Shown in pieces: positions 41,427-54,196 of a DNA stretch of 64,000 bases. This DNA comes from Bowdeniella nasicola. Lineage in GTDB: Bacteria; Actinomycetota; Actinomycetes; Actinomycetales; Actinomycetaceae. Position numbers and translations under genes: made by a program. The DNA is taken from the NCBI RefSeq assembly GCF_900107735.1, contig NZ_FNQV01000002.1:1-64000 (forward strand), in the 5' to 3' direction. The notes below the pieces were generated by a model, which was not told the DNA's origin, did no database searches, and saw only the letters and a program-made list of their open reading frames with translations. Position 1 is the stretch's first letter. Each line of letters opens with the position of its first letter.

Positions 41427-42431
41427 CTAGGGGGTGAGGACACCGGTCGATGCACGCACGACCAGTTCGGGTGCGAACACCAGTGACGCCGCCGATGTCG
41501 TGCGGCCATCGATCATCTGGATCAGAGTTCCGGCAGCCGCCCGCGCGATGCGGCCAACGGGCTGGCGGATCGTGGTCAGCGGGGGATCGGTGTAGGCGAT
41601 GAGCGGTGTGTCGTCGTAGCCGACGATAGAAATATCGTCCGGAACTCGCAAACCGAGTTGACGTATCTGGCGCACGGCACCCATCGCCATCATGTCGGAG
41701 GCGCAGATGATCGCGGTGCAGCCGGCGCGCAGCAGCTCGGCGGCGGCGGCCTGGCCGCCTTCCATCGTGTAGAGCGAGGACGAAATGTGCGGCTCGGTGT
41801 TCAGTCCCGCACGCTGGTGGGCGGCGGTGAAACCCGCGACCTTCTTTTGCGTGGGAATGAACCGTTGTGGGCCGACGGCGAGCCCGATGCTGGTGTGACC
41901 GAGCGTGACGAGATGATCGAATGCGCGCGCGGTCGCGTCCTCATCGTCGCAGGAAAACGACGGCGCGCTGACCTCGGGATTCGGGCCATTGATCGTGACA
42001 AATGGGGTATCGGCGAGGTTGGTGTAGCGCTCGGGGTCTGCAGCCGAATCGGCGTGCAAACCCGAGACGAAGATAATTCCCGCGACGTGCCGGTCAAGGA
42101 GCGTGCGCACGTACTCGTCCTCGGTGATTCCCCCGGGCGACTGGGTACACAGCAGCGGCATGTACCCCTCGGTGGACAGGACTTGTTCGATCTCTTGGGC
42201 GTAGAGCGGGAACACCGGATTCGATAGCTCGGGGACAATGAGGCCAATGAGGCCGCTCGACTGTGGGGCCGACTCGGTGGGACGCTCGTAGCCGAGGACG
42301 TCAAGCGCCGCAAGAACCGCGCGCCGCTTGTCTTTGGCGACGCCGGGTCGGTCGTTGACGACACGTGAAACTGTTGCCGTGGAAACCTTGGCGTGCCGAG
42401 CGACATCGCTCAGCCGAATGCGTGATGACAT
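41427..42431 (-). CDS. LacI family repressor of the sugar locus
   Basis: A 334-aa regulator. The LacI helix-turn-helix (RLSDVARHAKVSTATVSRVV, residues 5-24) is followed by the hinge helix and a periplasmic-binding-protein-like effector domain (LIGLIVPELSNPVFPLYAQE onward). It is divergent from malE, with a LacI-type operator in the shared 135-bp intergenic region, and upstream of the GH13 gene on its own strand. It probably represses both sides until a maltooligosaccharide binds. Confidence 0.92.
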   Translation of the reverse strand: MSSRIRLSDVARHAKVSTATVSRVVNDRPGVAKDKRRAVLAALDVLGYERPTESAPQSSGLIGLIVPELSNPVFPLYAQEIEQVLSTEGYMPLLCTQSPGGITEDEYVRTLLDRHVAGIIFVSGLHADSAADPERYTNLADTPFVTINGPNPEVSAPSFSCDDEDATARAFDHLVTLGHTSIGLAVGPQRFIPTQKKVAGFTAAHQRAGLNTEPHISSSLYTMEGGQAAAAELLRAGCTAIICASDMMAMGAVRQIRQLGLRVPDDISIVGYDDTPLIAYTDPPLTTIRQPVGRIARAAAGTLIQMIDGRTTSAASLVFAPELVVRASTGVLTP

Positions 42432-42487: not shown

Positions 42488-42501
42488 TGTAAACGCTTGC
42501 A
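42488..42501. promoter_or_regulatory. LacI-type operator between lacI and malE
   Basis: TGTAAACGCTTGCA is a near-palindrome centred on CG, matching the LacI/CcpA-type pattern TGnAAnCGnTTnCA. It lies 57 bp upstream of lacI and 66 bp upstream of malE, so it can control both. A TACTCT at 42545-42550 could be the malE -10 box. Confidence 0.65.
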
Positions 42502-42566
42502 AGAGTTGCAGGACGAGCGTACGCTCAAGGTGACAACACGTTGATACTCTGAATGGGAGACATCAA

Positions 42567-43826
42567 ATGCGACGGAGCATTGCGGGCGTTTCAGCCCTCG
42601 CGCTTACCCTCACTCTGGCCGCCTGCGGTGGCGGATCCGGAACCACCGAAACCGCAACGCCAACCGGCGATGCGACGACGACCGAAGCTGGCGGCGACAA
42701 GGGCGGCGAAGGCCAGACCCTGACCGTGTGGGTCGACGAGACTCGCATCAAGCCGGTGGAAGCTGCGGCAGCCAAGTTCAAGGAAGACACGGGCGTCGAG
42801 GTTCAGATCGTCCAGAAGAACTTCGATGACATTCGCGCCGAGTTCAACAGCCAGGTCCCCTCGGGCAAGGGCCCGGACATCACCGTTGGCGCTCACGACT
42901 GGCTCGGCGAAATGGTCAAGAACGGCGTCGTGTCCCCGATCGAGATCGGCGACAAGTCTGGTGAATTCCAGGACGTGGCCATTGAGGCCTTCACCTCCGA
43001 TGGCCAGGTCTACGCCGTGCCTTACGCCGTGGAGAATATCGGCCTGATCCGCAACACCGAGCTTGCCTCGGAAGCCCCCGCGACCTTCGACGACATGGTC
43101 AAGATGGGCAAGGACGCCGGCACGCAGTACCCCTTCCTCATCCAGGTGGATGAAAAGGGCGATCCCTACACGATGGCTCCCTTCCAGCACTCCTTCGGGG
43201 CCTACGTCTTCAAGCAGAATGACGACGGCTCCTACACCAGCGAGCTCGGCCTTGCCGGCGAGCCCGGCCACAACTTCGCCAACTGGCTGAAGGACAACGG
43301 CAAGAACGGCACCGGCCTGCTCTCGACCTCCATCACCTACGACATTGCGACCGAGCAGTTCGCTCAGGGCAAGGCGCCGTTCATCATCGGTGGCCCCTGG
43401 ATGCTGGAGAAGTTCGCGGATCTGAAGCTCGCGATTGACCCGATCCCGACGACTGGCTCCGAGGTTGCCGCACCGTTCGTGGGTGTCCAGGGCTTCTACA
43501 TCAGCGCCAAGACCCCCAACGCGATCCTCGCGAACAACTTCCTGCTGAACTACATCGGCTCCAAGGACATCCAGGTTGAGATGTACAAGGCCGGCGGACG
43601 CGTTCCCGCGCTGCAGGTTGCTGCCGACGAAGTGAAGTCCGATGCGATCGTGGCGGGCTACGCCAAGGTCGCGGAAAACGGCATCCCGATGCCCTCGGTT
43701 CCCGAAATGGGCGCCGTGTGGAACTTCTGGGGCGTGACTGAAGCCCAGATCATCAACGGCGACGTTGAACCCGTCGCCGGCTGGGACAAGATGGTCGGCG
43801 ACATCGAAGCCGCCATCAAGAAGTAA
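42567..43826 (+). CDS. malE: Maltose/maltodextrin-type binding lipoprotein
   Basis: A 419-aa solute-binding protein, family 1. Lipobox LTLAAC places the lipid Cys at residue 20, followed by a Thr/Gly/Ala-rich linker. The mature domain shows LTVWVDETRIKPVEAAAAKF, GPDITVGAHDWLGEMVKNG, QVYAVPYAVENIGLIRNT and FIIGGPWMLEKF, close to MalE-type proteins. GGGAGA precedes the ATG. A hairpin after the stop separates it from malF. The sugar identity (maltose or longer dextrins) is inferred from the GH13 neighbour. Confidence 0.9.
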   Translation: MRRSIAGVSALALTLTLAACGGGSGTTETATPTGDATTTEAGGDKGGEGQTLTVWVDETRIKPVEAAAAKFKEDTGVEVQIVQKNFDDIRAEFNSQVPSGKGPDITVGAHDWLGEMVKNGVVSPIEIGDKSGEFQDVAIEAFTSDGQVYAVPYAVENIGLIRNTELASEAPATFDDMVKMGKDAGTQYPFLIQVDEKGDPYTMAPFQHSFGAYVFKQNDDGSYTSELGLAGEPGHNFANWLKDNGKNGTGLLSTSITYDIATEQFAQGKAPFIIGGPWMLEKFADLKLAIDPIPTTGSEVAAPFVGVQGFYISAKTPNAILANNFLLNYIGSKDIQVEMYKAGGRVPALQVAADEVKSDAIVAGYAKVAENGIPMPSVPEMGAVWNFWGVTEAQIINGDVEPVAGWDKMVGDIEAAIKK

Positions 43827-43834
43827 CGTCATCT

Positions 43835-43864
43835 GCGGGGCGCGGCACTTAGGCCGCGCCCCGC
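43835..43864 (+). terminator. Strong GC hairpin between malE and malF
   Basis: A perfect 12-bp GC stem (43835-43846 with 43853-43864) with a 6-nt loop lies 8 bp after the malE stop. No U-tract follows, so it is more likely an mRNA 3' stabiliser or partial attenuator than a full terminator. Confidence 0.7.
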
Positions 43865-43887
43865 GGTCGTATGCGTAAGGGGTATCG

Positions 43888-45495
43888 ATGTCGGATCACC
43901 AGTCGGCTGCCGATACGAAGGTAGCGAAAAACCGCGCGAAGGCTGCGCGCGAATCTCACGCGACGAGCATCCAGCCTGGCTTCATCGCCAAGCTCGTCGT
44001 CATGGCGATTATCAACGCCCTTGGCGTCTACATCCTGCTTTCCGCTTGGCAGGGTGGACACACGATGATCACGGGCATCATGCTAGCGATCCTCATCGTC
44101 GTCAACATCATTTATTTCTCCAAGCGCATGCTCCCCATGAAGTATCTGGCGCCGGGCTTGGTCTTCTTGCTCGTCTACCAGATCTTCGTGGTGCTCTACA
44201 CCGGATATGTGGCCTTCACGAACTACGGTGATGGCCATAACTCGGACAAGTCCGATGCCATCAGCGCGATCCTGGCCCAGAACCAGCGCCGGGTTGAAAG
44301 CAGTGCCGCGATGCCGCTGACTGTCATCGACAAGGACGGCGAGCTCGGTTTCGCAGTCGTGCAAGATGGCGCCGTCAAGGTCGGAACCTCGGAGGAACCG
44401 CTGGCTGACGCGCCTGACGCGAAGGTCGATGGCACCAAGGTCACCGAGGTTCCCGGCTGGCAGGTGTTAAACTTCGGTGACATCGCCAAGCGGCAAACCG
44501 AAATCACCCAACTTCGGGTACCCGTCTCCGATGACCCGAACCAGGGTTCCGTCGGAACTTCGGACGGTATGACGGGCTATGCCTATACGCCCCAGATGAC
44601 CTACGACGAAGCGAGCGATACCCTCACCGACCTCGCATCGGGCAAGGTCTACAAGCCCAATAACACGGGCAACTTCCAAGCCGAGGACGGCACAACAATC
44701 TCAACCGGTTGGCGCGTGCCCGTTGGCTTTGACAACTTCAAGGAAGCCTTCGGAGACTCGCGCTATGCGGGCCCCTTCGTCAAGGTGCTCCTGTGGACCT
44801 TCGCCTTCGCGTTGCTGTCGGTTGCAACGACCTTCTTCCTCGGCCTGTTCTTCGCCATCGTGATGAACGATGAGCGCATGAAGGGTCGCAAGATCTATCG
44901 CACCCTCATGCTGCTGCCATACGCATTCCCCGCGTTCTTGACGGCACTGCTGTTTAAGGGCATGTTGAACCGCGACTTTGGCTTCATTAACCAGGTCCTG
45001 CTCGGGGGAGTCGGGGTCGAGTGGCTCAACGATCCATGGCTCGCAAAATTCGCGATTATCTTCGTGAACCTGTGGATGGGCTTCCCCTACATGTTCCTCA
45101 TCTGTACCGGTGCGCTTCAGGCAATTCCGGACGACGTGATTGAGGCAGCGAAAATCGATGGGGCCTCGCCCTTTAGGATCTTCCGTTCGGTCACGATGCC
45201 GCTGCTGCTCGTGGCGGTGGCGCCGCTGCTGATCTCCTCATTCGCATTCAACTTCAACAACTTCAACCTCATCTACATGCTGACGGGCGGTGGGCCACGC
45301 TTTACCGACACGTCGGCCCCGATTGGCGCAACCGACATCCTCATCACCATGGTCTATTCCGTGGCCGGTCTGGATGGCGGCGCAGCGAAGAACTACGGCC
45401 TGGCCTCGGCCCTGTCGATCGTCATCTTCCTGATCGTCGCAACGATCTCGCTCATCAGCTTTAAGAAGACCAAGACCCTGGAGGAGATCAACTAA
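43888..45495 (+). CDS. malF: Maltose-type ABC transporter permease MalF
   Basis: A 535-aa permease. Three N-terminal helices (about 30-112) are followed by a large exterior domain (about 113-285), corresponding to the MalF P2 loop that contacts the binding protein, and the BPD transport core (about 290-535). The EAA loop reads EAAKIDGASPFRIFRSVTMP and docks with the ATPase. The ATPase gene is not in this locus; a shared MalK/MsmK-type protein elsewhere is likely. Confidence 0.92.
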   Translation: MSDHQSAADTKVAKNRAKAARESHATSIQPGFIAKLVVMAIINALGVYILLSAWQGGHTMITGIMLAILIVVNIIYFSKRMLPMKYLAPGLVFLLVYQIFVVLYTGYVAFTNYGDGHNSDKSDAISAILAQNQRRVESSAAMPLTVIDKDGELGFAVVQDGAVKVGTSEEPLADAPDAKVDGTKVTEVPGWQVLNFGDIAKRQTEITQLRVPVSDDPNQGSVGTSDGMTGYAYTPQMTYDEASDTLTDLASGKVYKPNNTGNFQAEDGTTISTGWRVPVGFDNFKEAFGDSRYAGPFVKVLLWTFAFALLSVATTFFLGLFFAIVMNDERMKGRKIYRTLMLLPYAFPAFLTALLFKGMLNRDFGFINQVLLGGVGVEWLNDPWLAKFAIIFVNLWMGFPYMFLICTGALQAIPDDVIEAAKIDGASPFRIFRSVTMPLLLVAVAPLLISSFAFNFNNFNLIYMLTGGGPRFTDTSAPIGATDILITMVYSVAGLDGGAAKNYGLASALSIVIFLIVATISLISFKKTKTLEEIN

Positions 45496-45496
45496 C

Positions 45497-46411
45497 ATGG
45501 CTACCTCAGATGTCACCACGGTCCAGACGCAGACCGGTGAAAAGGTCACGGTCGAAAACAAGATCTCGCGTAAGCGGTGGTTTCGAGAGATCGGCTGGCG
45601 CCACATCGTTGGCGTCCTGGCCGTGATCTATTCGGCCTTCCCCATCATCTATATTCTGTCCGCCTCGCTGAACCCGACGGGCACGATGACCGGGTCGAAC
45701 AAGCTCTTCAACGAGATCACGTTCGAGAACTTCGCCAAGCTCAACGACACCTACTTCTGGCAGTGGGTGCTCAACTCGCTGCTCATTGGTGGCGTGACGG
45801 CTATCGGAACGGTGCTTATGGGAGCTGCGGCAGCCTACGCGTTCTCGCGCTTCCGCTTCACCGGCCGCCGGATGGGCCTCATGAGTCTGCTCGTCATCCA
45901 GATGTTCCCGCAGTTGCTCGCCTTCGTGGCGATCTTCCTGCTGCTGCTGGCGCTGGGGGATGCGGTTCCGGTGCTGGGGCTGAACAGCCGGCTTGCACTG
46001 ATCTGCGTCTACCTCGGTGGCGCGCTCGGTGTGAACACGTTCCTGATGTACGGCTTCTTCAACACGATCCCGGCGTCTTTGGATGAGGCGGCGAAGATCG
46101 ATGGGGCCTCCCATGCGCAGATCTTCTGGACGATCATCTTGCGCCTGGTAGCGCCGATCCTCGCGGTCGTCGGCCTGCTGAGCTTCATCTCAACCTTCTC
46201 CGACTTCATTTTGGCGCGCATCTTGCTGCAGTCAGAAAAGAACTGGACGGTCGCGGTGGGGATGTACCAGTGGGTCTCGGACCGCCTCGATGCGAACTGG
46301 GGCCTGTTTGCCGCGGGAGCGCTGATCGCCGCGATTCCGATCCTGCTGCTGTTCTTGTTCCTGCAGAAGTACATCGTTTCCGGTCTGACGGCCGGAAGCG
46401 TGAAGGGCTAG
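45497..46411 (+). CDS. malG: Maltose-type ABC transporter permease MalG
   Basis: A 304-aa permease with six helices. The EAA loop is DEAAKIDGASHAQIFWTI. The N-terminal cytoplasmic stretch (1-38) is longer than in E. coli MalG. It starts 1 bp after the malF stop. Its stop shares CTAG 46408-46411 with the convergent GH13-like gene, leaving no room for a terminator. Confidence 0.92.
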   Translation: MATSDVTTVQTQTGEKVTVENKISRKRWFREIGWRHIVGVLAVIYSAFPIIYILSASLNPTGTMTGSNKLFNEITFENFAKLNDTYFWQWVLNSLLIGGVTAIGTVLMGAAAAYAFSRFRFTGRRMGLMSLLVIQMFPQLLAFVAIFLLLLALGDAVPVLGLNSRLALICVYLGGALGVNTFLMYGFFNTIPASLDEAAKIDGASHAQIFWTIILRLVAPILAVVGLLSFISTFSDFILARILLQSEKNWTVAVGMYQWVSDRLDANWGLFAAGALIAAIPILLLFLFLQKYIVSGLTAGSVKG

Positions 46412-47562
46412 CCCTCTTCCGACATCGCGAAGGGCGGAAGCTCAATCATCGCCGCCGCGTCCGACGGGACCACCAGCCTCCCGTCGGACAGGCGGCGAAT
46501 ATCGGTTGAGGCATGCTGGAGTTTGACTGACTCGGGCAGCAGTACCGGTTCGGCGGCCGTATTCAAGACGATGAGCATGCAACGATTGAGCAGCTCAAGG
46601 GTGCCTGATGCGCGATGGGCACCGTCGACCCACGCCACTGTTCCAGTGCCGAGCTGGTAGTCATCACGCAGGCGCAGGCTGCGGCGGTAATGCTCGAACA
46701 TCGACGTCGGGTCATTGGCCTGGGCCAGTTGCGCTTCGCGGACCTGGGCGGCGCGCGCGGCCGGATCGTGGTCGAGCGACCAGTCACGCAGTCCCACTTC
46801 CTCGCCCTGCAGCAGGTAGCAGGCGCCGGGTAGCGCCATCACCATGAGGGCGGCCGCGCGGACGCGGGCGACGGGCATCCGGTCGGCTTGCCACGAGTCG
46901 CCGGCCGGGCCGGTGCGGTAAAGCGCGTAGGTGGTAGTCCAGGCGGGGGAGGCGCCCAACGCGTCGCGGGTATCGAAGGTCTTGGTGACGGCGTTGCGGA
47001 TCTCGTCGGCGTTCCACGGCACATCGGTCAGCGAGTCATCGCGCAGGTGGCCGAGCCAATCCTCGGCGAGGTGGCCCGTGAGATCATCGCGTTCGCGCAT
47101 GGCACCGGCGAGCAGGCCCTCGTGGCGGTGCTCGGCGATCAGGGCGTGAAACGGCCCCGTCGAGGTCACCTGCTTTGCCGCCAGCGCCGAACGTAGATCA
47201 ATTCCGTCGACGTGCGCGTTGAGCCAGGTTTCCGCGTCAGCAAGAAGGCCGTCTTGGCCGCGCGAGGGCGCGAGCGAGGCAATGACCCGCAAACCGGCGG
47301 CCTGATGGGCCGAAACGATCTGGGCGGCGACCTCCGGTGAGATGGCATCCGGGCCCGACGGCACGACAACACCGTCGACGCCAAGGCGCACCGCGTCTGC
47401 GATGCACTCGGTTGCTAGCTCCGGCTGGGCGCCCGCAGTAAAGGAGTACTCGTAGAGTACGACGGATCGCCACCAGGCCTGTTCGCCGCGGCCTGCTCGG
47501 TGCACAAGTGTCATCGTCTGCAGGTCGGGGCGCAGCGTCGTGGTGTGCGGATCAAGGGTCAT
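46408..47562 (-). CDS. GH13-derived protein lacking catalytic residues (pseudoenzyme)
   Basis: A 384-aa protein clearly related to the neighbouring alpha-glucosidase: WWRSVVLYEYSF matches WWHSAVIYQIYPRSF, and RVRAAALMVMALPGACYLLQ matches its C-terminal barrel strand, followed in both by GEE and VGL/LGL. All four GH13 catalytic regions have changed: DLVPNH became ASLAPSR (95-101), GFRID became GIDLR (120-124), VAEAW became AGAMR (152-156), and LSNHD is absent near 212. It is also 167 residues shorter. The frame is open and undamaged, so it may be a binding or regulatory protein. ATG 47562 has GGGGAA about 10 nt upstream; ATG 47580 is possible. Confidence 0.75.
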   Translation of the reverse strand: MTLDPHTTTLRPDLQTMTLVHRAGRGEQAWWRSVVLYEYSFTAGAQPELATECIADAVRLGVDGVVVPSGPDAISPEVAAQIVSAHQAAGLRVIASLAPSRGQDGLLADAETWLNAHVDGIDLRSALAAKQVTSTGPFHALIAEHRHEGLLAGAMRERDDLTGHLAEDWLGHLRDDSLTDVPWNADEIRNAVTKTFDTRDALGASPAWTTTYALYRTGPAGDSWQADRMPVARVRAAALMVMALPGACYLLQGEEVGLRDWSLDHDPAARAAQVREAQLAQANDPTSMFEHYRRSLRLRDDYQLGTGTVAWVDGAHRASGTLELLNRCMLIVLNTAAEPVLLPESVKLQHASTDIRRLSDGRLVVPSDAAAMIELPPFAMSEEG

Positions 47563-47607
47563 GCGCCCATTGTTCCCCATTGAGCCGGATTCGTGCAGGT
47601 TGACCGG

Positions 47608-47657: not shown

Positions 47658-48947
47658 GTGAGTGTTTTCCCCGAAGGTATCTCGGCTGATCGAGCCTATA
47701 ACGCTGCCTCACAGGAACGCTACGAGGCCGAACCACCGAAGTCCTCGGCGCGCACGGCCTTCGAGCGGGACCGGGCGCGCGTCTTGCACAGCGCCGGGCT
47801 GCGGCGCCTGGGAGCCAAGACTCAAGTCTTTGGGCCCAGCCAGGACGATTTTGTGCGGACTCGGCTGACGCACTCCCTGGAGGTCGCTCAAATCGGGCGC
47901 GAACTCGGCAAAATCCTGGGGTGCAACCCGGACGTCGTGGAAACGGCGTGCCTCGTGCACGACATCGGCCATCCGCCCTTTGGCCATAACGGCGAACGCG
48001 CGCTGAACGAGGTCGCGGCCGAGATTGGAGGCTTTGAGGGCAATGCGCAAACGCTCCGGCTGCTGACGCGCCTGGAGGCCAAGACGATGAGTGCGACGCG
48101 TAGCGTCGGACTGAACCTGACGCGCGCATCGCTCGACGCGACGTGCAAGTACCCCTGGGCGGAAGGCGCCGCACCGCCGCGCCCCGATGGCACGCGCAGC
48201 TCCAAGTACGGCGTCTATCACGACGATGCCGACATCTTCGGCTGGATGCGTACGGGAGCGCCCTACGGCGAGCGCTGCATCGAGGCCCAGGTGATGGACC
48301 TCGCGGACGATGTCGCCTACAGCGTGCACGACGTCGAGGACGCGATCGCCTCCGGCCGGCTTGCCCCGCACGTGCTTGCTGATGATGCCCTCATCTCGCA
48401 GGTTATCGACGCCACCGTCGCCTGGTACGGCTCGGAGGTGCGGGCCGATGATCTCTATGACGCGCTTGGCCGGCTCCGTCGCGAACCGTACTGGGTCGCC
48501 GATTTTACCGGGTCCCGCGCGGATCTCGCGGCGTTGAAGAATATGACGAGCCAGCTCATCGGGCGCTTCTGCTCAGCCGTGGAGAACGCCACCCGCAACG
48601 CCCACGGCCCGGGCAGGCTCGTGCGATACGACGCGCGTCTCGTCATTCCCGCTGATACGTTGGCCGAGATCACCGTGATGAAGGGGATTGCGGTGCATTT
48701 CGTCATGGCGCCGCGCGAGGCCGAACCGCTGTATTTGTCGCAGCGAACGATTCTATTTGACCTGGCCGATACGCTGATGACAAGCGGTGGGGAAGGCCTG
48801 GAGCCAGCCTTTGCTGGCGACTGGGCGGCCGCGCGCACCGAGGCCGAGCGCCTGCGCGTTGTCGTCGATCAGCTGGCCTCCCTCACCGATACATCGGCAC
48901 ACCAGTGGCATGCGCGGCTGTGCGGAATGTTCTCAGAACTGAATTAG
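47658..48947 (+). CDS. dgt: dGTP triphosphohydrolase-like HD protein
   Basis: A 429-aa HD-domain phosphohydrolase that removes triphosphate from dNTPs. The metal site includes His72 (RTRLTHSLEV), His101-Asp102 and His105 in CLVHDIGHPPFGHNGE, and a later Asp (VMDLADDVAYSVHD). This type-2 Dgt lies directly before dnaG in many actinobacteria. It ends 8 bp before the primase start. Confidence 0.93.
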   Translation: MSVFPEGISADRAYNAASQERYEAEPPKSSARTAFERDRARVLHSAGLRRLGAKTQVFGPSQDDFVRTRLTHSLEVAQIGRELGKILGCNPDVVETACLVHDIGHPPFGHNGERALNEVAAEIGGFEGNAQTLRLLTRLEAKTMSATRSVGLNLTRASLDATCKYPWAEGAAPPRPDGTRSSKYGVYHDDADIFGWMRTGAPYGERCIEAQVMDLADDVAYSVHDVEDAIASGRLAPHVLADDALISQVIDATVAWYGSEVRADDLYDALGRLRREPYWVADFTGSRADLAALKNMTSQLIGRFCSAVENATRNAHGPGRLVRYDARLVIPADTLAEITVMKGIAVHFVMAPREAEPLYLSQRTILFDLADTLMTSGGEGLEPAFAGDWAAARTEAERLRVVVDQLASLTDTSAHQWHARLCGMFSELN

Positions 48948-48955
48948 GACGAAAC

Positions 48956-50857
48956 GTGGCTGGGTTGATCAAACGAGAGGACATCGATCAGGTACGCGAG
49001 CGCACCCGCATCGATGACCTCGTCTCTCAACACGTCACGCTACGTCCTGCAGGCGTCGGCTCGCTGAAGGGACTGTGCCCGTTCCACGACGAAAAGACGC
49101 CATCCTTCCACGTCCGCCCGACGGTGGGCAGATGGCACTGCTTTGGCTGCGGGGAGGGCGGAGATGTCATCAACTTCGTGCAGCGCATCAATGGCGTGAG
49201 CTTCGTCGAGGCCGTCGAGCATTTGGCCGACCGCCTCGGCATGACGCTCCGCTACGAGGAAGGCTCCGCGCCCGCAAAGGACCAGGCGGCGCCTGGTTTG
49301 CGGCGGCGGTTGCTTGCAGCCCACGAGGTCGCCGAAGAGTACTATCGCAGCCAACTGCTCTCACCCGAGGCCCGGATTGCCCGCGAGTTCCTCTCAAAGC
49401 GAGGTTTTGACCAGGCAGCCGCCGTACGCTTCGGCATTGGCTATGCGCCCAAAGGCTGGGATAACCTCTTGTCCCACCTGCGCGGCCGCGGCTTTACCGA
49501 AAAAGAGCTGGCCGCCTCCGGCCTCGTCTCCCAGGGAAATCGGGGCCATTACGACCGCTTCCGCGGCCGCGTCATGTGGCCGATCCGAGACGTCATCGGC
49601 TCGACGATTGGGTTCGGCGCGCGTCACCTATACGAGGACGATAAGGGGCCGAAGTACCTCAATACCCCCGAGACGATGATCTATAAGAAGTCTCAGGTGC
49701 TCTACGGTCTCGACCTCGCCAAACGCGAGATCGCCAAGGACCGCCAAATCGTAATCGTCGAGGGTTACACCGACGTCATGGCCTGCCACCTCGCGGGCGT
49801 CGGCACCGCCGTCGCGACGTGTGGCACCGCCTTTGGCTCGGACCACGTGCGAATCGTGCGCCGATTGCTCGGCGATGCCAAGGACGCAGCCTCGGGGCTG
49901 CGCCTAGCCTCCGGACAGGTGCGCGGTGGGGAAGTGATCTTCACCTTCGATGGTGATGCGGCCGGACGCAAGGCAGCACTGAAGGCATTCAACGAGGACC
50001 AGTCGTTTGGAGCGCAGACGTTCGTTGCGGTCGAGCCGCGCGGTCTCGACCCGTGCGATCTCTGGCTCGCCGACGGAGATGAGGCCGTTTCCCGGCTCAT
50101 CGCCCAGCGCCAACCGCTGTTTGAGTTCGTCATTCACTCGGCCTTGGCCGAGCTCGATCTCGACACCGCCGAAGGTCGCGTCGCAGGACTGAAGAGCTGC
50201 GCCCCCGTCGTCGCGACGATCCGCGATCAGGCGTTGCGTGGTGAATACACGCGCCAACTGGCAGGCTGGCTCGGCATGGACGTCGCAACCGTCGCCCACG
50301 AGGTGCGGACGGCGCCCCGGCTCAGCCATCCCGAGCGCGTGAATCCCGCCGAGCGGCCCGTCGCGGGGCGCGCCGATGCGCCCGCGCAGCCCGATCGCTC
50401 CGATCCCGTCGTCAAGCTCGAGGCGCAAGCGCTGCAACTCGCGTTGCAAGAACCGGCAACCGCCTATGCCTGCGGCTTCGACTCTTTGCAGGGAGCGGCC
50501 TTCGTCGTGCCGATCTACCGCGCGCTGTTTGACGCCATCCAGGCTGTTGGTGGGACCGGCAGTGCAACGGAATCAGAATCGCCCTCCCACTGGCTTGAGG
50601 CTGTCGTCGAGGAAATTCCCGACCAGCTGCGCTCGGCCGCCGGAGCGCTGTCGGTCTCACCGATCCCGCTGGGGGATGAGCCGCTGCGGGCCTACACGAT
50701 CGAGGTTCTCAACGCACTGCTGCGGATGGACCTCAATCGCAAGATCGCCCACCTGCGCGGCCAGCTTTCGCGGGCTCAGCCGCAAGACCCGGACTATCAC
50801 GAAATCTTCACTCAACTCGTTGCATTGGAAACGGAGCGGCGGCGTCGTCAGGGATAA
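48956..50857 (+). CDS. dnaG: DNA primase
   Basis: A 633-aa primase making RNA primers at the replication fork. The CHC2 zinc domain uses Cys41, His44, Cys62 and Cys65 (CPFHDEKTPSFH, HCFGCGEGG). The TOPRIM core shows VIVEGYTDVMAC and FTFDGDAAGRKA. The C-terminal helicase-binding region (about 450-633) is diverged, as is usual. GTG 48956 has AGGA upstream and gives the conserved start AGLIKREDIDQVRERT. A longer frame overlaps dgt and was rejected. Confidence 0.95.
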   Translation: MAGLIKREDIDQVRERTRIDDLVSQHVTLRPAGVGSLKGLCPFHDEKTPSFHVRPTVGRWHCFGCGEGGDVINFVQRINGVSFVEAVEHLADRLGMTLRYEEGSAPAKDQAAPGLRRRLLAAHEVAEEYYRSQLLSPEARIAREFLSKRGFDQAAAVRFGIGYAPKGWDNLLSHLRGRGFTEKELAASGLVSQGNRGHYDRFRGRVMWPIRDVIGSTIGFGARHLYEDDKGPKYLNTPETMIYKKSQVLYGLDLAKREIAKDRQIVIVEGYTDVMACHLAGVGTAVATCGTAFGSDHVRIVRRLLGDAKDAASGLRLASGQVRGGEVIFTFDGDAAGRKAALKAFNEDQSFGAQTFVAVEPRGLDPCDLWLADGDEAVSRLIAQRQPLFEFVIHSALAELDLDTAEGRVAGLKSCAPVVATIRDQALRGEYTRQLAGWLGMDVATVAHEVRTAPRLSHPERVNPAERPVAGRADAPAQPDRSDPVVKLEAQALQLALQEPATAYACGFDSLQGAAFVVPIYRALFDAIQAVGGTGSATESESPSHWLEAVVEEIPDQLRSAAGALSVSPIPLGDEPLRAYTIEVLNALLRMDLNRKIAHLRGQLSRAQPQDPDYHEIFTQLVALETERRRRQG

Positions 50858-50965: not shown

Positions 50966-53900
50966 GTGAATTCCTCTGCGCGTTTTAAAGAGCGTATTCC
51001 GACGTTTTTCGGTTGGCTTTTTACGGCCTACGGGGTGCTCTACCTACTCGGGATGGGCTTTGTCCATATCGGGCGGCCGATGCGCCACTTCCTGAATCAC
51101 GTCGACCTTTACCTCATGCCGGTACCGCGCGCATCGCTGTCCTGGCTCGTCGTATTGTTCTTACTCGCCGGAGCGATGTTCACGCGCAAGCGCGTCGTCC
51201 TCATTGTCACGGTGCCTGCCCTCGTCTTGATCCTGCTGACCAACATTTTGGGCCTGTCGTCCGGCGAGCGTGTGCCGCTGACCTGGGTGATCCCCGGGAT
51301 CGCGATCCAGGTCATCTTGCTGGCGCTGCTGCTATATGCACGCAAAGAATTCGTTGTACGGATCCGGCGAGCCAACTTTGTTGGCTCCATCATGGTGCTC
51401 GTCGTGGGTCTAATTCTTGCCATCGGCGTCGGCTGGCTCATCGTCATGGCCTTCCCATCCGACGTCCCGAGCTCCCAACGCCTGATCTACACGATCCAGC
51501 ACATCCTGTCGCTCGGGGCGATGGACTCCATTCGGGAACTTGGCCATGGCACCATCCACCTGCGCGCCACCTTGGGCGTGCTCGGGGCCCTGCCGATCAT
51601 CGCGGCCGTCGTCACGCTACTGCGCTCTCAACGGATCAGCAACACTCTCACCGAGGAAGACGAAGATCTCATCCGGACGCTGCTTTCGCACTATGGCGCC
51701 AACGACTCTCTGGGCTATTTTGCGACGCGGCGCGATAAGTCCGTCGTGTTCTCGCCGGATGGCCGCGCAGCTATCACTTACCGCCAGGAAGCGGGCAACG
51801 CTCTGGCCTCCTCGGATCCCGTGGGCGATCCCGACTCATGGCCGGCCGCCATTGCGCAGTGGCGCGAGGTGTGCCGACGCTACGGCTGGAGCGCGTCCGT
51901 CCTGGGCGCTTCCAGCGCTGGCGCCGCGGCATACGCGAAGGCCGGTTTGAAGGTGCTGCGCGTTGGCGACGAGGCCGTCGTCCATCTCACGAACCGATCC
52001 GCGCTGCGTTCCCCGGAAGTACGGCGCCACGTTAACGCCAGCCGTAAGCGCGGCATGAGCGTGCGGATTCGTCGGCACAGCGCGATCAGTGAAGCCGAGA
52101 TGGCGGAGATCGTCGCCGATGCTGACCGGTGGCGCACGGGCGGCGCCGAGCGCGGCTTTTCGATGGCGCTCTCCCGCCTCGGGCACCCGGCCGACGGCAA
52201 CTGCCTGCTCGCCGAAGTCCTCGATGCGGACGGCACGCGCGTAGCAATGCACTCCTACGTGCCGTGGGGGCCGAACGGGATCTCGCTCGATCTCATGCGG
52301 CGAAGCCCCGATGCGCCCGCTGGCGTTAACGAGTTCCTCGTTGCCTCGATCGTGGAGAATGCGGACGGCTTGGGCCTTACCCGGATGTCGCTGAACTTCG
52401 CTGTCTTCCGCGAAATCTTCGAAGCCGGGGCAGCCCTCGGCGCGGGACCGATTCTGCGCCTGACGCGACGCATCTTGCTCTTCGCTTCGCGCTTTTGGCA
52501 ACTCGAGTCCCTCTATCGCGCCAATGAGAAATACGCGCCCGAGTGGTTCCCGCGTTACGTCGCCTACGAAGAAACGCGCACCCTGGGTAGTGCGCTCGTC
52601 GCCATGGGGCTCGCGGAAGGCTACCTGCCTCGCATCCCGCTGAAGGGGCTGCCATCCAAGGTCACCGGCGCCTACCCCCAGGCCCACCTGGTAGAAACCC
52701 CGACCTTCGACACCGAGGTAATCGTTCGGCGGGTACCGGAGCAGGTGCGGGTGCGCACCGATAAGGCACGCGCACTCATCGACGAGGGAATCAACCCGTG
52801 GCCCGTAGGCGCGTCGAGCCCGCAGCACGCGGCGAAACTGCTGGAGGCTGCTACCGGAGCAAGTCTCACGATCTCGGGCCGCGTCATTCGGCAACGAAAC
52901 TTCGGTTCGGTCGTCTTCCTCGTCGTACGCGACTGGAGTGGACAGTGCCAGGTGATCGTCGATGCTGGCGCGCCCGAGGCGCTCGACTTCATCCGAAGCA
53001 ACGTCGACCTCGGCGACCTCATCGAGGTGTCAGGTAGTCGCGGTGAATCCCGCACCGGAGAGCCGTCGCTGCTCGCCACCGACGTACGGATGATCGCCAA
53101 GTGCCTGCGACCGCTGCCGGATAAGTACCACGGCCTGACTGATCCCGAGGCCCAGGTTCGTCAGCGCCACGTCGACCTCGCGATCAACGATGAGGCTCGC
53201 CGGACGCTGGCGGCCCGGTCCGCGATCCTGAACTCGCTGCGCGCAAGCCTGCTTGCCGAAGGCTACCTGGAAGTCGAAACGCCCATCTTGCAGCCGATCC
53301 ACGGTGGCGCAAACGCGCGCCCATTCACGACGCACATCAATGCCTATGACCTCGACCTGTACCTGCGCATCGCGCCCGAGCTCTATCTCAAGCGGCTGTG
53401 TGTGGGCGGCGTTGAGCGAGTCTTCGAGCTCGGCCGCACCTTCCGTAACGAGGGCGTGGACTTCTCCCACAACCCGGAGTTCACGATCCTGGAGGCCTAC
53501 CGCGCGCACGCCGATTACATCGACATGCTCCACACTATTCGTCGCCTCATTCAAAATGCGGCGATCGCCGTCCACGGCGAGTGTATCGTTCCCGGGCCCG
53601 ACGGTCAGATGGTCGATATTTCGGGGGAGTGGCCCATCGTACCGATCTACGACGGCATCTCCGACGCACTAGCGGGCACGAGCGTTGCTCATCTCGCACC
53701 GATCACGACGGAAACGAGCGTCGAGGATCTGCAGCAGGTATGCGAAGGGCTCGACATCGCCTACCGGCCTGACTGGGATCACGGCGAACTCGTCCTTGAG
53801 CTCTACGAACACCTGATTGAGGAGCGCACGACGACGCCACAGTTCAACATCGATTTTCCGCTTTCGGTTTCGCCGTTGACCGGGACGCACCGCCACAACC

Positions 53901-54196
53901 CGAAGCTCGCTGAGCGGTGGGACCTCGTCGCGTGGGGCGTCGAACTCGGCACCGCCTATTCCGAACTCACCAACCCGATCGACCAGCGCGACCGGCTGAC
54001 CGAGCAGTCGGTCAAGGCCGCCGGCGGCGATCCGGAGGCGATGGAGTTGGACGAGGACTTCCTATCCGCGCTCGAGTTCGGCATGGCGCCGTCAGGCGGA
54101 CTCGGCATGGGCGTCGATCGAGTCGTCATGCTCATCACCGGCAAGTCGCTGCGAGAAACGCTGCCCTTCCCGCTCGTCAAGCCCGCGGGTGCATAA
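50966..54196 (+). CDS. lysX: Bifunctional lysylphosphatidylglycerol synthase / lysyl-tRNA synthetase
   Basis: A 1076-aa fusion. The N-terminal membrane part (about 10-225) has six or so helices. The phosphatidylglycerol lysyltransferase domain (DUF2156, about 240-570) follows. An OB-fold anticodon-binding domain (about 645-720) and a class II LysRS core (about 735-1075) complete it; the core has motif 2 FELGRTFRNEGVDFSHNPEF and motif 3 GGLGMGVDRVVML. It charges tRNA-Lys and transfers lysine to membrane lipid, lowering negative charge and giving resistance to cationic peptides in mycobacteria. Whether a separate lysS exists cannot be seen here. Confidence 0.95.
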   Translation: MNSSARFKERIPTFFGWLFTAYGVLYLLGMGFVHIGRPMRHFLNHVDLYLMPVPRASLSWLVVLFLLAGAMFTRKRVVLIVTVPALVLILLTNILGLSSGERVPLTWVIPGIAIQVILLALLLYARKEFVVRIRRANFVGSIMVLVVGLILAIGVGWLIVMAFPSDVPSSQRLIYTIQHILSLGAMDSIRELGHGTIHLRATLGVLGALPIIAAVVTLLRSQRISNTLTEEDEDLIRTLLSHYGANDSLGYFATRRDKSVVFSPDGRAAITYRQEAGNALASSDPVGDPDSWPAAIAQWREVCRRYGWSASVLGASSAGAAAYAKAGLKVLRVGDEAVVHLTNRSALRSPEVRRHVNASRKRGMSVRIRRHSAISEAEMAEIVADADRWRTGGAERGFSMALSRLGHPADGNCLLAEVLDADGTRVAMHSYVPWGPNGISLDLMRRSPDAPAGVNEFLVASIVENADGLGLTRMSLNFAVFREIFEAGAALGAGPILRLTRRILLFASRFWQLESLYRANEKYAPEWFPRYVAYEETRTLGSALVAMGLAEGYLPRIPLKGLPSKVTGAYPQAHLVETPTFDTEVIVRRVPEQVRVRTDKARALIDEGINPWPVGASSPQHAAKLLEAATGASLTISGRVIRQRNFGSVVFLVVRDWSGQCQVIVDAGAPEALDFIRSNVDLGDLIEVSGSRGESRTGEPSLLATDVRMIAKCLRPLPDKYHGLTDPEAQVRQRHVDLAINDEARRTLAARSAILNSLRASLLAEGYLEVETPILQPIHGGANARPFTTHINAYDLDLYLRIAPELYLKRLCVGGVERVFELGRTFRNEGVDFSHNPEFTILEAYRAHADYIDMLHTIRRLIQNAAIAVHGECIVPGPDGQMVDISGEWPIVPIYDGISDALAGTSVAHLAPITTETSVEDLQQVCEGLDIAYRPDWDHGELVLELYEHLIEERTTTPQFNIDFPLSVSPLTGTHRHNPKLAERWDLVAWGVELGTAYSELTNPIDQRDRLTEQSVKAAGGDPEAMELDEDFLSALEFGMAPSGGLGMGVDRVVMLITGKSLRETLPFPLVKPAGA

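Follow-up and report, generated by a model that had tools for sequence, protein, structure and literature searches.

Pseudoenzymes are already known as a kind within glycoside hydrolase family 13 (GH13). The plant isoamylase ISA2 is a GH13 relative with non-catalytic roles that pairs with the active isoamylase ISA1. In animals, 4F2hc (SLC3A2, the CD98 heavy chain) has a domain A and a domain C but lacks domain B, and its active site is not conserved (PMC8537225). Here we describe an apparent GH13 pseudoenzyme from the bacterium Bowdeniella nasicola. It is encoded in a 64,000-nucleotide stretch of DNA (contig NZ_FNQV01000002.1, positions 1 to 64,000; hereafter the window) by an open frame at 46408..47562 on the minus strand, read from 47562 to 46408, which specifies 384 amino acids plus a stop codon, or 390 amino acids from an in-frame ATG at 47580; start codons were picked by a script. 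The intact 384-residue frame reported in a first-pass annotation of the window is open and real, and needed correction only as to its strand. We consider the chances about even that the protein is a soluble, non-catalytic binding or scaffold descendant of a GH13_30 alpha-glucosidase with a ligand or partner outside the maltose system. The label GH13_30 is taken from the title of PDB entry 8yie, not from a CAZy search.

The pseudoenzyme retains the GH13 framework blocks WWRSVVLYEYSF and LPGACYLLQGEEVGL. A profile-profile alignment (hhalign) of 56 homologues against 18 intact alpha-glucosidases of the type of P0002, the GH13 paralogue encoded in the same window, covered 398 columns with a probability of 100 and an E value of 1.5e-49. 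In a single-sequence Pfam search the window protein scored 12 bits for PF00128 (E 0.12), short of the curated threshold of 22, and at E<=0.01 one of the 56 homologues matched PF00128 and nine matched DUF3459. The 56 are the distinct proteins left from 72 fetched loci after identical proteins were dropped; 30 of the loci were the best matches of the first search, and 40 context loci (L041-L080) were picked by hand. The homologues are 22-74% identical to the window protein (22-38% outside its genus), and two close copies, at 64% and 56% identity, come from Bowdeniella metagenome-assembled genomes.

All four catalytic regions are altered in the profile alignment. Former conserved region I reads SLAPSR at residues 96-101 (47260..47277, minus strand), where the enzymes have DLVPNH, and domain B, which comes next in the enzymes, is missing. 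The nucleophile strand GFRID has become GIDLR, Ala154 (47101..47103, minus) stands at the column of the acid/base Glu (VAEAW), and Leu214 (46921..46923, minus) stands at that of the transition-state Asp (NHD). Asp122, in the GIDL of strand beta-4 (47197..47199, minus), is aligned by the profiles with the invariant Arg of the RxD in GFRID and not with the nucleophile; a 5-row MAFFT alignment instead puts it at the nucleophile, by way of a two-residue gap inside the strand. The framework motif LPG is kept at residues 244-246 (46825..46833, minus), with Pro245 and Gly246 invariant in all 56 homologues. Neither the nucleophile column nor the transition-state column holds Asp or Glu in any of the 56, and even the loosest reading, which accepted Asp at 122 or 124, Glu within 152-154 and Asp within 212-215, found an Asp, Glu, Asp series in one homologue. 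These counts support the view that the Asp/Glu/Asp catalytic set is absent and that no realignment restores it, and the protein is apparently catalytically dead. According to PMC5347038, the GH13 alpha-amylase BmaN1 has a changed transition-state residue and is still active, and for that reason the inactivity of the pseudoenzyme is something that we infer.

The first-pass annotation had read both the kept framework and the four altered regions correctly, although it did not mention the loss of domain B. This domain is missing in 56/56 homologues: the spacing between the beta-3 and beta-4 anchors is 19-42 residues in the homologues and 97-109 in the 18 enzymes, with 21 residues in the window protein, whose anchors are at 97 and 119. 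The window protein is 384 amino acids long, as compared with about 550-600 for GH13_30 enzymes.

Some columns have acquired new residues that are conserved in the family. The enzymes conserve 100 columns of the aligned core blocks. In the pseudoenzymes the residue is unchanged at 16 of these, conservation is gone from 78, and at six a different residue is fixed, "fixed" meaning at least 80%, a threshold that we chose and that carries no chance expectation. The six are D122, H164, W169, R174, D175 and D176. Five of them, fixed unlike in the enzymes, lie within residues 164-176 and belong to a signature, H-L-x-E-D-W-x-H-H-L-R-D-D-x-L, which spans residues 164-178 (47029..47073, minus) and here reads HLAEDWLGHLRDDSL. 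Asp122 is present in 54/56 homologues, Arg174 in 50/56, and Asp175 and Asp176 in 47/56 each, at positions where the enzymes hold R, F, N and F. In the alignment R174-D176 fall on enzyme strand beta-6, and D122 lies in beta-4, so placed that both may face the former active-site side. The newly fixed residues support a functional shift rather than plain decay.

An AlphaFold model built from five alignment rows had a pLDDT of 66.5 and a pTM of 0.70; an earlier model from three rows had a pLDDT of 53.7, and its Foldseek matches were not used. When the five-row model was compared by VIA-align with the 1000 chains that Foldseek had ranked highest, and hence not in an independent search, 4F2hc (2dh2, Z 21.9, 311 aligned residues, 4.1 A) and CmmB (8yie, Z 20.8, 302 aligned residues, 3.9 A) were about tied, and the best 50 rows (Z 18.4-21.9) were mostly GH13 relatives. 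A sequence-profile search of solved structures gave the GH13_30 enzyme CmmB (8yie/8yif) as the best match, in pieces, at E 3e-28; 4F2hc matched over its full length at E 3.9e-11, a score that some other alpha-glucosidases equal. The full-length form of the 4F2hc match is explained by the lack of domain B in both proteins. The pseudoenzyme is thus predicted to be a GH13-homologous (beta/alpha)8 barrel followed by domain C, and its architecture is best read as like that of 4F2hc. It would also be soluble, with no membrane segment: the most hydrophobic 19-residue window scores 1.45, at residue 234, the first 60 residues reach 0.45, and a value above 1.8 occurs in 1/56 homologues.

In trees of the pseudoenzymes and P0002-type enzymes, with outgroups of our choice, the pseudoenzymes form one clade nested among the enzymes (support 100 in a quick tree and 100/100 in a careful one), which supports a single origin from a GH13_30 alpha-glucosidase. 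Grouping with the enzymes of another family (f13) had support of 99 in the quick tree and 50/4 in the careful tree, and for this reason we claim an origin only inside the P0002-type group. A sister relationship to the Bowdeniella alpha-glucosidases (together with L056) gave approximately unbiased (AU) test p values of 0.515 in a first test and 0.125 with the careful tree, and one to 14 mal-cluster enzymes of the Actinomycetaceae gave 0.509. Descent from the neighbouring P0002 in particular is neither shown nor rejected by these sequences.

In our genome samples the family occurs in the Actinomycetaceae alone. A profile built from the 56 homologues matched 121/213 Actinomycetaceae genomes at E<=1e-25, and a second profile that included shorter, divergent copies matched 134/213, in 20 of 36 genera; three of the 134 matches (G081, G109, G129) are weak and provisional. 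Among 198 genomes of the order, no fewer than 15 of which belong to the family, all nine full-length matches, at E <1e-90, were from Actinomycetaceae, and the best match from outside the family (1.3e-29) was to the C-terminal portion of a GH13 of full size, whose frame has 641 codons. At E<=1e-40 the window's own genome alone matched in a phylum sample of 396 genomes, the make-up of which is for the most part unspecified. Plasmids and phages gave no match, and two scans of viral contigs, each with single homologues as query, found no relative; a mobile origin was rejected on these grounds.

The window gene forms one end of a maltose-type cluster, the opposite end of which is the intact alpha-glucosidase gene of P0002 (39760..41415, minus). 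Between them a Pfam search recognised a LacI-family regulator (41427..42431, minus) and the genes for a maltose-type ABC importer (solute-binding protein, MalF-like and MalG-like; 42567..46411, plus). The malG gene is convergent with the pseudoenzyme gene, and its stop codon overlaps the 3' end of the latter. On the other side dgt (47658..48947, plus) is divergent from the pseudoenzyme gene and is followed by the primase gene dnaG (48905..50857, plus). The names GlyRS, YibE, DusB, Dgt, DnaG and LysX are provisional. A palindrome at 42492..42507 (no strand), upstream of the solute-binding protein gene, resembles a LacI operator and presumably acts as one. No second copy was found in the window at up to three mismatches, and the palindrome is not repeated in the upstream gap of the pseudoenzyme gene itself. 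A shared operator that would tie the pseudoenzyme to the mal regulon was thus sought and not found, which is weak evidence.

Comparison of loci separates the pseudoenzyme from the maltose genes. Forty context loci were chosen for spread of genera from 148 matching genomes, so that fractions such as 8/40 or 40/40 do not describe random samples, and selection by match to P0001 favours better-conserved copies. Divergent dgt adjoins the pseudoenzyme gene in 40/40 of these loci and dnaG lies within 8 kb in 39/40. MalF of at least 50% identity was found within 4 kb in just 8/40, with a weaker MalF in five more, an alpha-glucosidase of at least 53% identity within 9 kb in 14/40, and a LacI relative within 6.5 kb in 17/40. 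The locus L042, from the same genus as the window, has the pseudoenzyme without malEFG or lacI. What varies among the loci is the maltose transporter, and the link to transporter and paralogue is a local feature of the window. One locus of genus g23 has, between malG and the pseudoenzyme, a further GH13 of full size that is 46% identical to P0002 (L076, 8493-10109).

Co-occurrence was also examined across whole genomes. A search for P0002-type enzymes at E<=1e-140 found 126/213 family genomes; both gene and enzyme were present in 84, the gene only in 50, the enzyme only in 42 and neither in 37 (Fisher p 0.20). This table is rough, because the enzyme threshold misses some genomes (for example G041, with a 62% identical enzyme at the locus) and because kinship is ignored. 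It supports INDEPENDENCE of the pseudoenzyme from maltose use. PF00128 and MalF were searched for in 20 gene-bearing genomes, most of them picked for small size or few first-look candidates and some for comparison. PF00128 was matched in 19/20 of these and in 13/14 controls, the gene-bearing genome without a match being G030, a single contig of 1.54 Mb listed as 99% complete, which has an open pseudoenzyme copy of about 413 amino acids (L069). The best MalF match in G030 is 36% over about 200 residues. In another genome, G019, MalF is unmatched at 1e-20, yet GH13s are present. Since G030 has the gene and no PF00128 match, the protein in that lineage has no recognisable GH13 enzyme to serve.

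Nine loci from other families were read as well (L111-L119). In family f13 (L111, L112, L116) the slot divergent from dgt is taken by an alpha-glucosidase of full length that shares 58-62% identity with P0002, and because these enzymes share the slot, the adjacency to dgt was probably inherited from the enzyme gene and predates the loss of catalysis. In family f8 (L113-L115) it is the dusB end that holds the alpha-glucosidase. Of the remaining loci, L118 has undergone rearrangement, and in L117 and L119 none of the other locus genes was seen. Two of the f8 loci (L114, 1906-3117; L115, 17607-18686) have a distant GH13 match, 25% identical to P0002, between dgt and the mal genes.

The extracted frames of the 56 homologues are free of stops and 328-453 amino acids long, length being the informative measure since extraction ends at the first stop codon; the one split copy, over two frames, is in the 82%-complete genome G391. 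Among the 40 pairs least diverged at synonymous sites, Nei-Gojobori dN/dS was 0.07-0.26 in 33, which are not independent (31 lie within genus g4 and two within g23), and 0.5-0.9 in seven, with dS made uncertain by high GC. This gene changes more quickly than those around it, although most of its dN/dS values are far lower than neutral change would give. Because the catalytic set cannot be restored, the frames are open and most close pairs are under purifying selection, a non-catalytic protein seems to have been retained. It probably has a new job, since many members of the family keep the gene, one of them without any working GH13 enzyme. Retention for a non-catalytic role, as the first-pass annotation had proposed, is supported by open frames, mostly purifying dN/dS and many genera. 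The relatives read share the nucleophile and transition-state losses (56/56) and the neighbouring dgt (40/40), but not all of them share the acid/base change or MalF; low dN/dS was found in most pairs and not in all. The annotation's suggestion of a regulator of the active paralogue or of the transporter is not supported by the locus counts, the co-occurrence table and G030.

A number of observations weigh against a retained binding or scaffold protein, among them the non-independence of the low-dN/dS pairs, as the 213-genome table weighs for independence from the enzyme. The seven high-dN/dS pairs are all among L017-L023, mostly of genus g23, where the fast evolution could be relaxed or positive selection, and in L075/L043 the pseudoenzyme value of 0.60 stands against 0.23 (dgt), 0.31 (alpha-glucosidase) and 0.34 (lacI); relaxed selection fits both sets. 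Between the window and L041 the value of 0.19 exceeds that of seven of eight neighbouring genes (0.09-0.22), and between the window and L042 that of 0.23 is the highest of five genes. No match was found in 79/213 family genomes, and when the dgt locus was read in 20 genomes with a weak match or none, 17 had no copy recognisable by tblastn, the remaining three having a divergent copy in the slot (L135-L137, frames of 341-484 amino acids). The signature is not kept in these three copies, and the D122/R-D-D cluster is incomplete in L024 and L057. Persistence in a GH13-free genome comes from one genome, G030. The acid/base column holds Glu in 7/56 homologues and Asp in 15/56, so that this site is not uniformly dead. 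As for the model, two of its five alignment rows are intact GH13s, which partly builds in the fold, plain Foldseek with it gave nothing at E<=0.001, and residues 161-181 and 201-227 (the signature and beta-7) have pLDDT <50, for which reason the placement at the barrel mouth comes from the alignment of sequences. The seven homologues with Glu at the acid/base column are L055, L056, L060, L064, L066, L067 and L070, in all of which the nucleophile and transition-state columns are without Asp or Glu.

In the window the gene terminates the mal cluster and is convergent with malG, which suggests that the pseudoenzyme could act on the active alpha-glucosidase, or else on the MalEFG importer, as a regulator or stabilizer, by binding the same sugar or by pairing with the enzyme. 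The nearby alpha-glucosidases (14/40) and LacI relatives (17/40) would fit this, as would the presence of some PF00128 protein in 19/20 gene-bearing genomes, but the scarcity of MalF in the loci, its absence with lacI from L042, the lack of association with the enzyme over 213 genomes and the mal palindrome that is not repeated at the promoter gap all speak against such a role, which G030 weakens further, and we regard it as unlikely. Even less probable, in our estimation, is a function with the product of dgt (dNTP turnover) or with dnaG. The adjacency to dgt in every context locus is its attraction, yet the f13 loci hold a full-length alpha-glucosidase in that slot, and a Dgt match was present in 30/30 genomes searched while 17 of the 20 loci read among them had no recognisable pseudoenzyme.

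Two further explanations concern what became of the protein itself, and each seems to us improbable, if a shade less so than a role in maltose regulation. The gene could be a relic on its way out, a dead alpha-glucosidase copy drifting under weak constraint before deletion; the 79 family genomes without a match, the low identity outside the genus, the seven high-dN/dS pairs and the split copy in G391 are what such a relic might leave. The 56 stop-free frames, the low dN/dS in 33/40 pairs (mostly of one genus), the six columns fixed to new residues and the retention in many genera argue otherwise, and a lone decaying gene was rejected as the leading explanation on breadth and dN/dS while being kept as a rival. 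Alternatively, beta/alpha barrels often acquire new activities, and with charged residues at D122 and R174-D176 replacing R, F, N and F of the enzymes, the rebuilt barrel mouth could be a new catalytic or metal site. Against a new enzyme stand the copies in which the cluster is missing (L135-L137) or incomplete (L024, L057), the poor model confidence at the cluster, and a context that offers no clue to a substrate.

The reading that we favour is of a soluble, apparently dead descendant of a GH13_30 alpha-glucosidase that would work in the cytoplasm as a non-catalytic binding or scaffold protein, and that would have stayed while the neighbouring importer and enzyme were lost or moved in many lineages. 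The barrel mouth, unroofed by the loss of domain B, would have been refitted with a polar set of Asp122 on beta-4 and Arg174-Asp175-Asp176 on beta-6, and this set would bind either a small molecule or a protein from outside the maltose system, the identity of that ligand or partner being the least sure part. These residues may line a pocket for a ligand, form a surface for a partner or a new catalytic site, or be no more than structural salt bridges. A bolder version, in which a GH13 glucosidase turned into an intracellular ligand sensor or a new enzyme unrelated to alpha-glucans, with D122, R174, D175 and D176 as the rebuilt site, is one that we advance tentatively and think rather doubtful.

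Past dnaG, at 50966-54196 (plus), the window has a single 1076-amino-acid frame of two-part appearance. Presumably it joins a membrane, DUF2156-like N-terminal half to a lysyl-tRNA-synthetase-like half, of the LysX type.

The GH13 pseudoenzymes that we met in print, animal 4F2hc and the plant isoamylase, are eukaryotic, and no description of the present family was found in the titles or abstract openings of open-licence PMC papers. A bacterial family of single origin, with intact enzyme relatives in the same slot of another family and with many genomes that have kept the gene beside many without it, offers a natural experiment in how an enzyme becomes a non-enzyme.

Compared with GH13_30 alpha-glucosidases such as CmmB (8yie/8yif) and P0002, the pseudoenzyme would share the barrel and the C-terminal beta domain and keeps the blocks WW and LPG and Arg299, and it differs in lacking domain B and the nucleophile and transition-state Asp, with the acid/base Glu also gone in the window protein. 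Unlike ISA2, which belongs to a different GH13 branch, it persists in a genome with no PF00128 match. BmaN1 likewise has a changed catalytic set, but it alters the transition-state residue and stays active, whereas the window protein has lost three catalytic residues and domain B. With 4F2hc the pseudoenzyme shares a degenerate GH13 domain made of a barrel and domain C, and among the SLC3A heavy chains it is 4F2hc and not rBAT that it fits in lacking domain B (PMC8537225). It differs in being bacterial and, by hydropathy, in having no single transmembrane anchor helix. The likeness probably reflects independent loss, 4F2hc having been outside our tree. On the bolder version given above, the Actinomycetaceae protein would be a bacterial, soluble counterpart of the animal conversion of a GH13 protein into 4F2hc.

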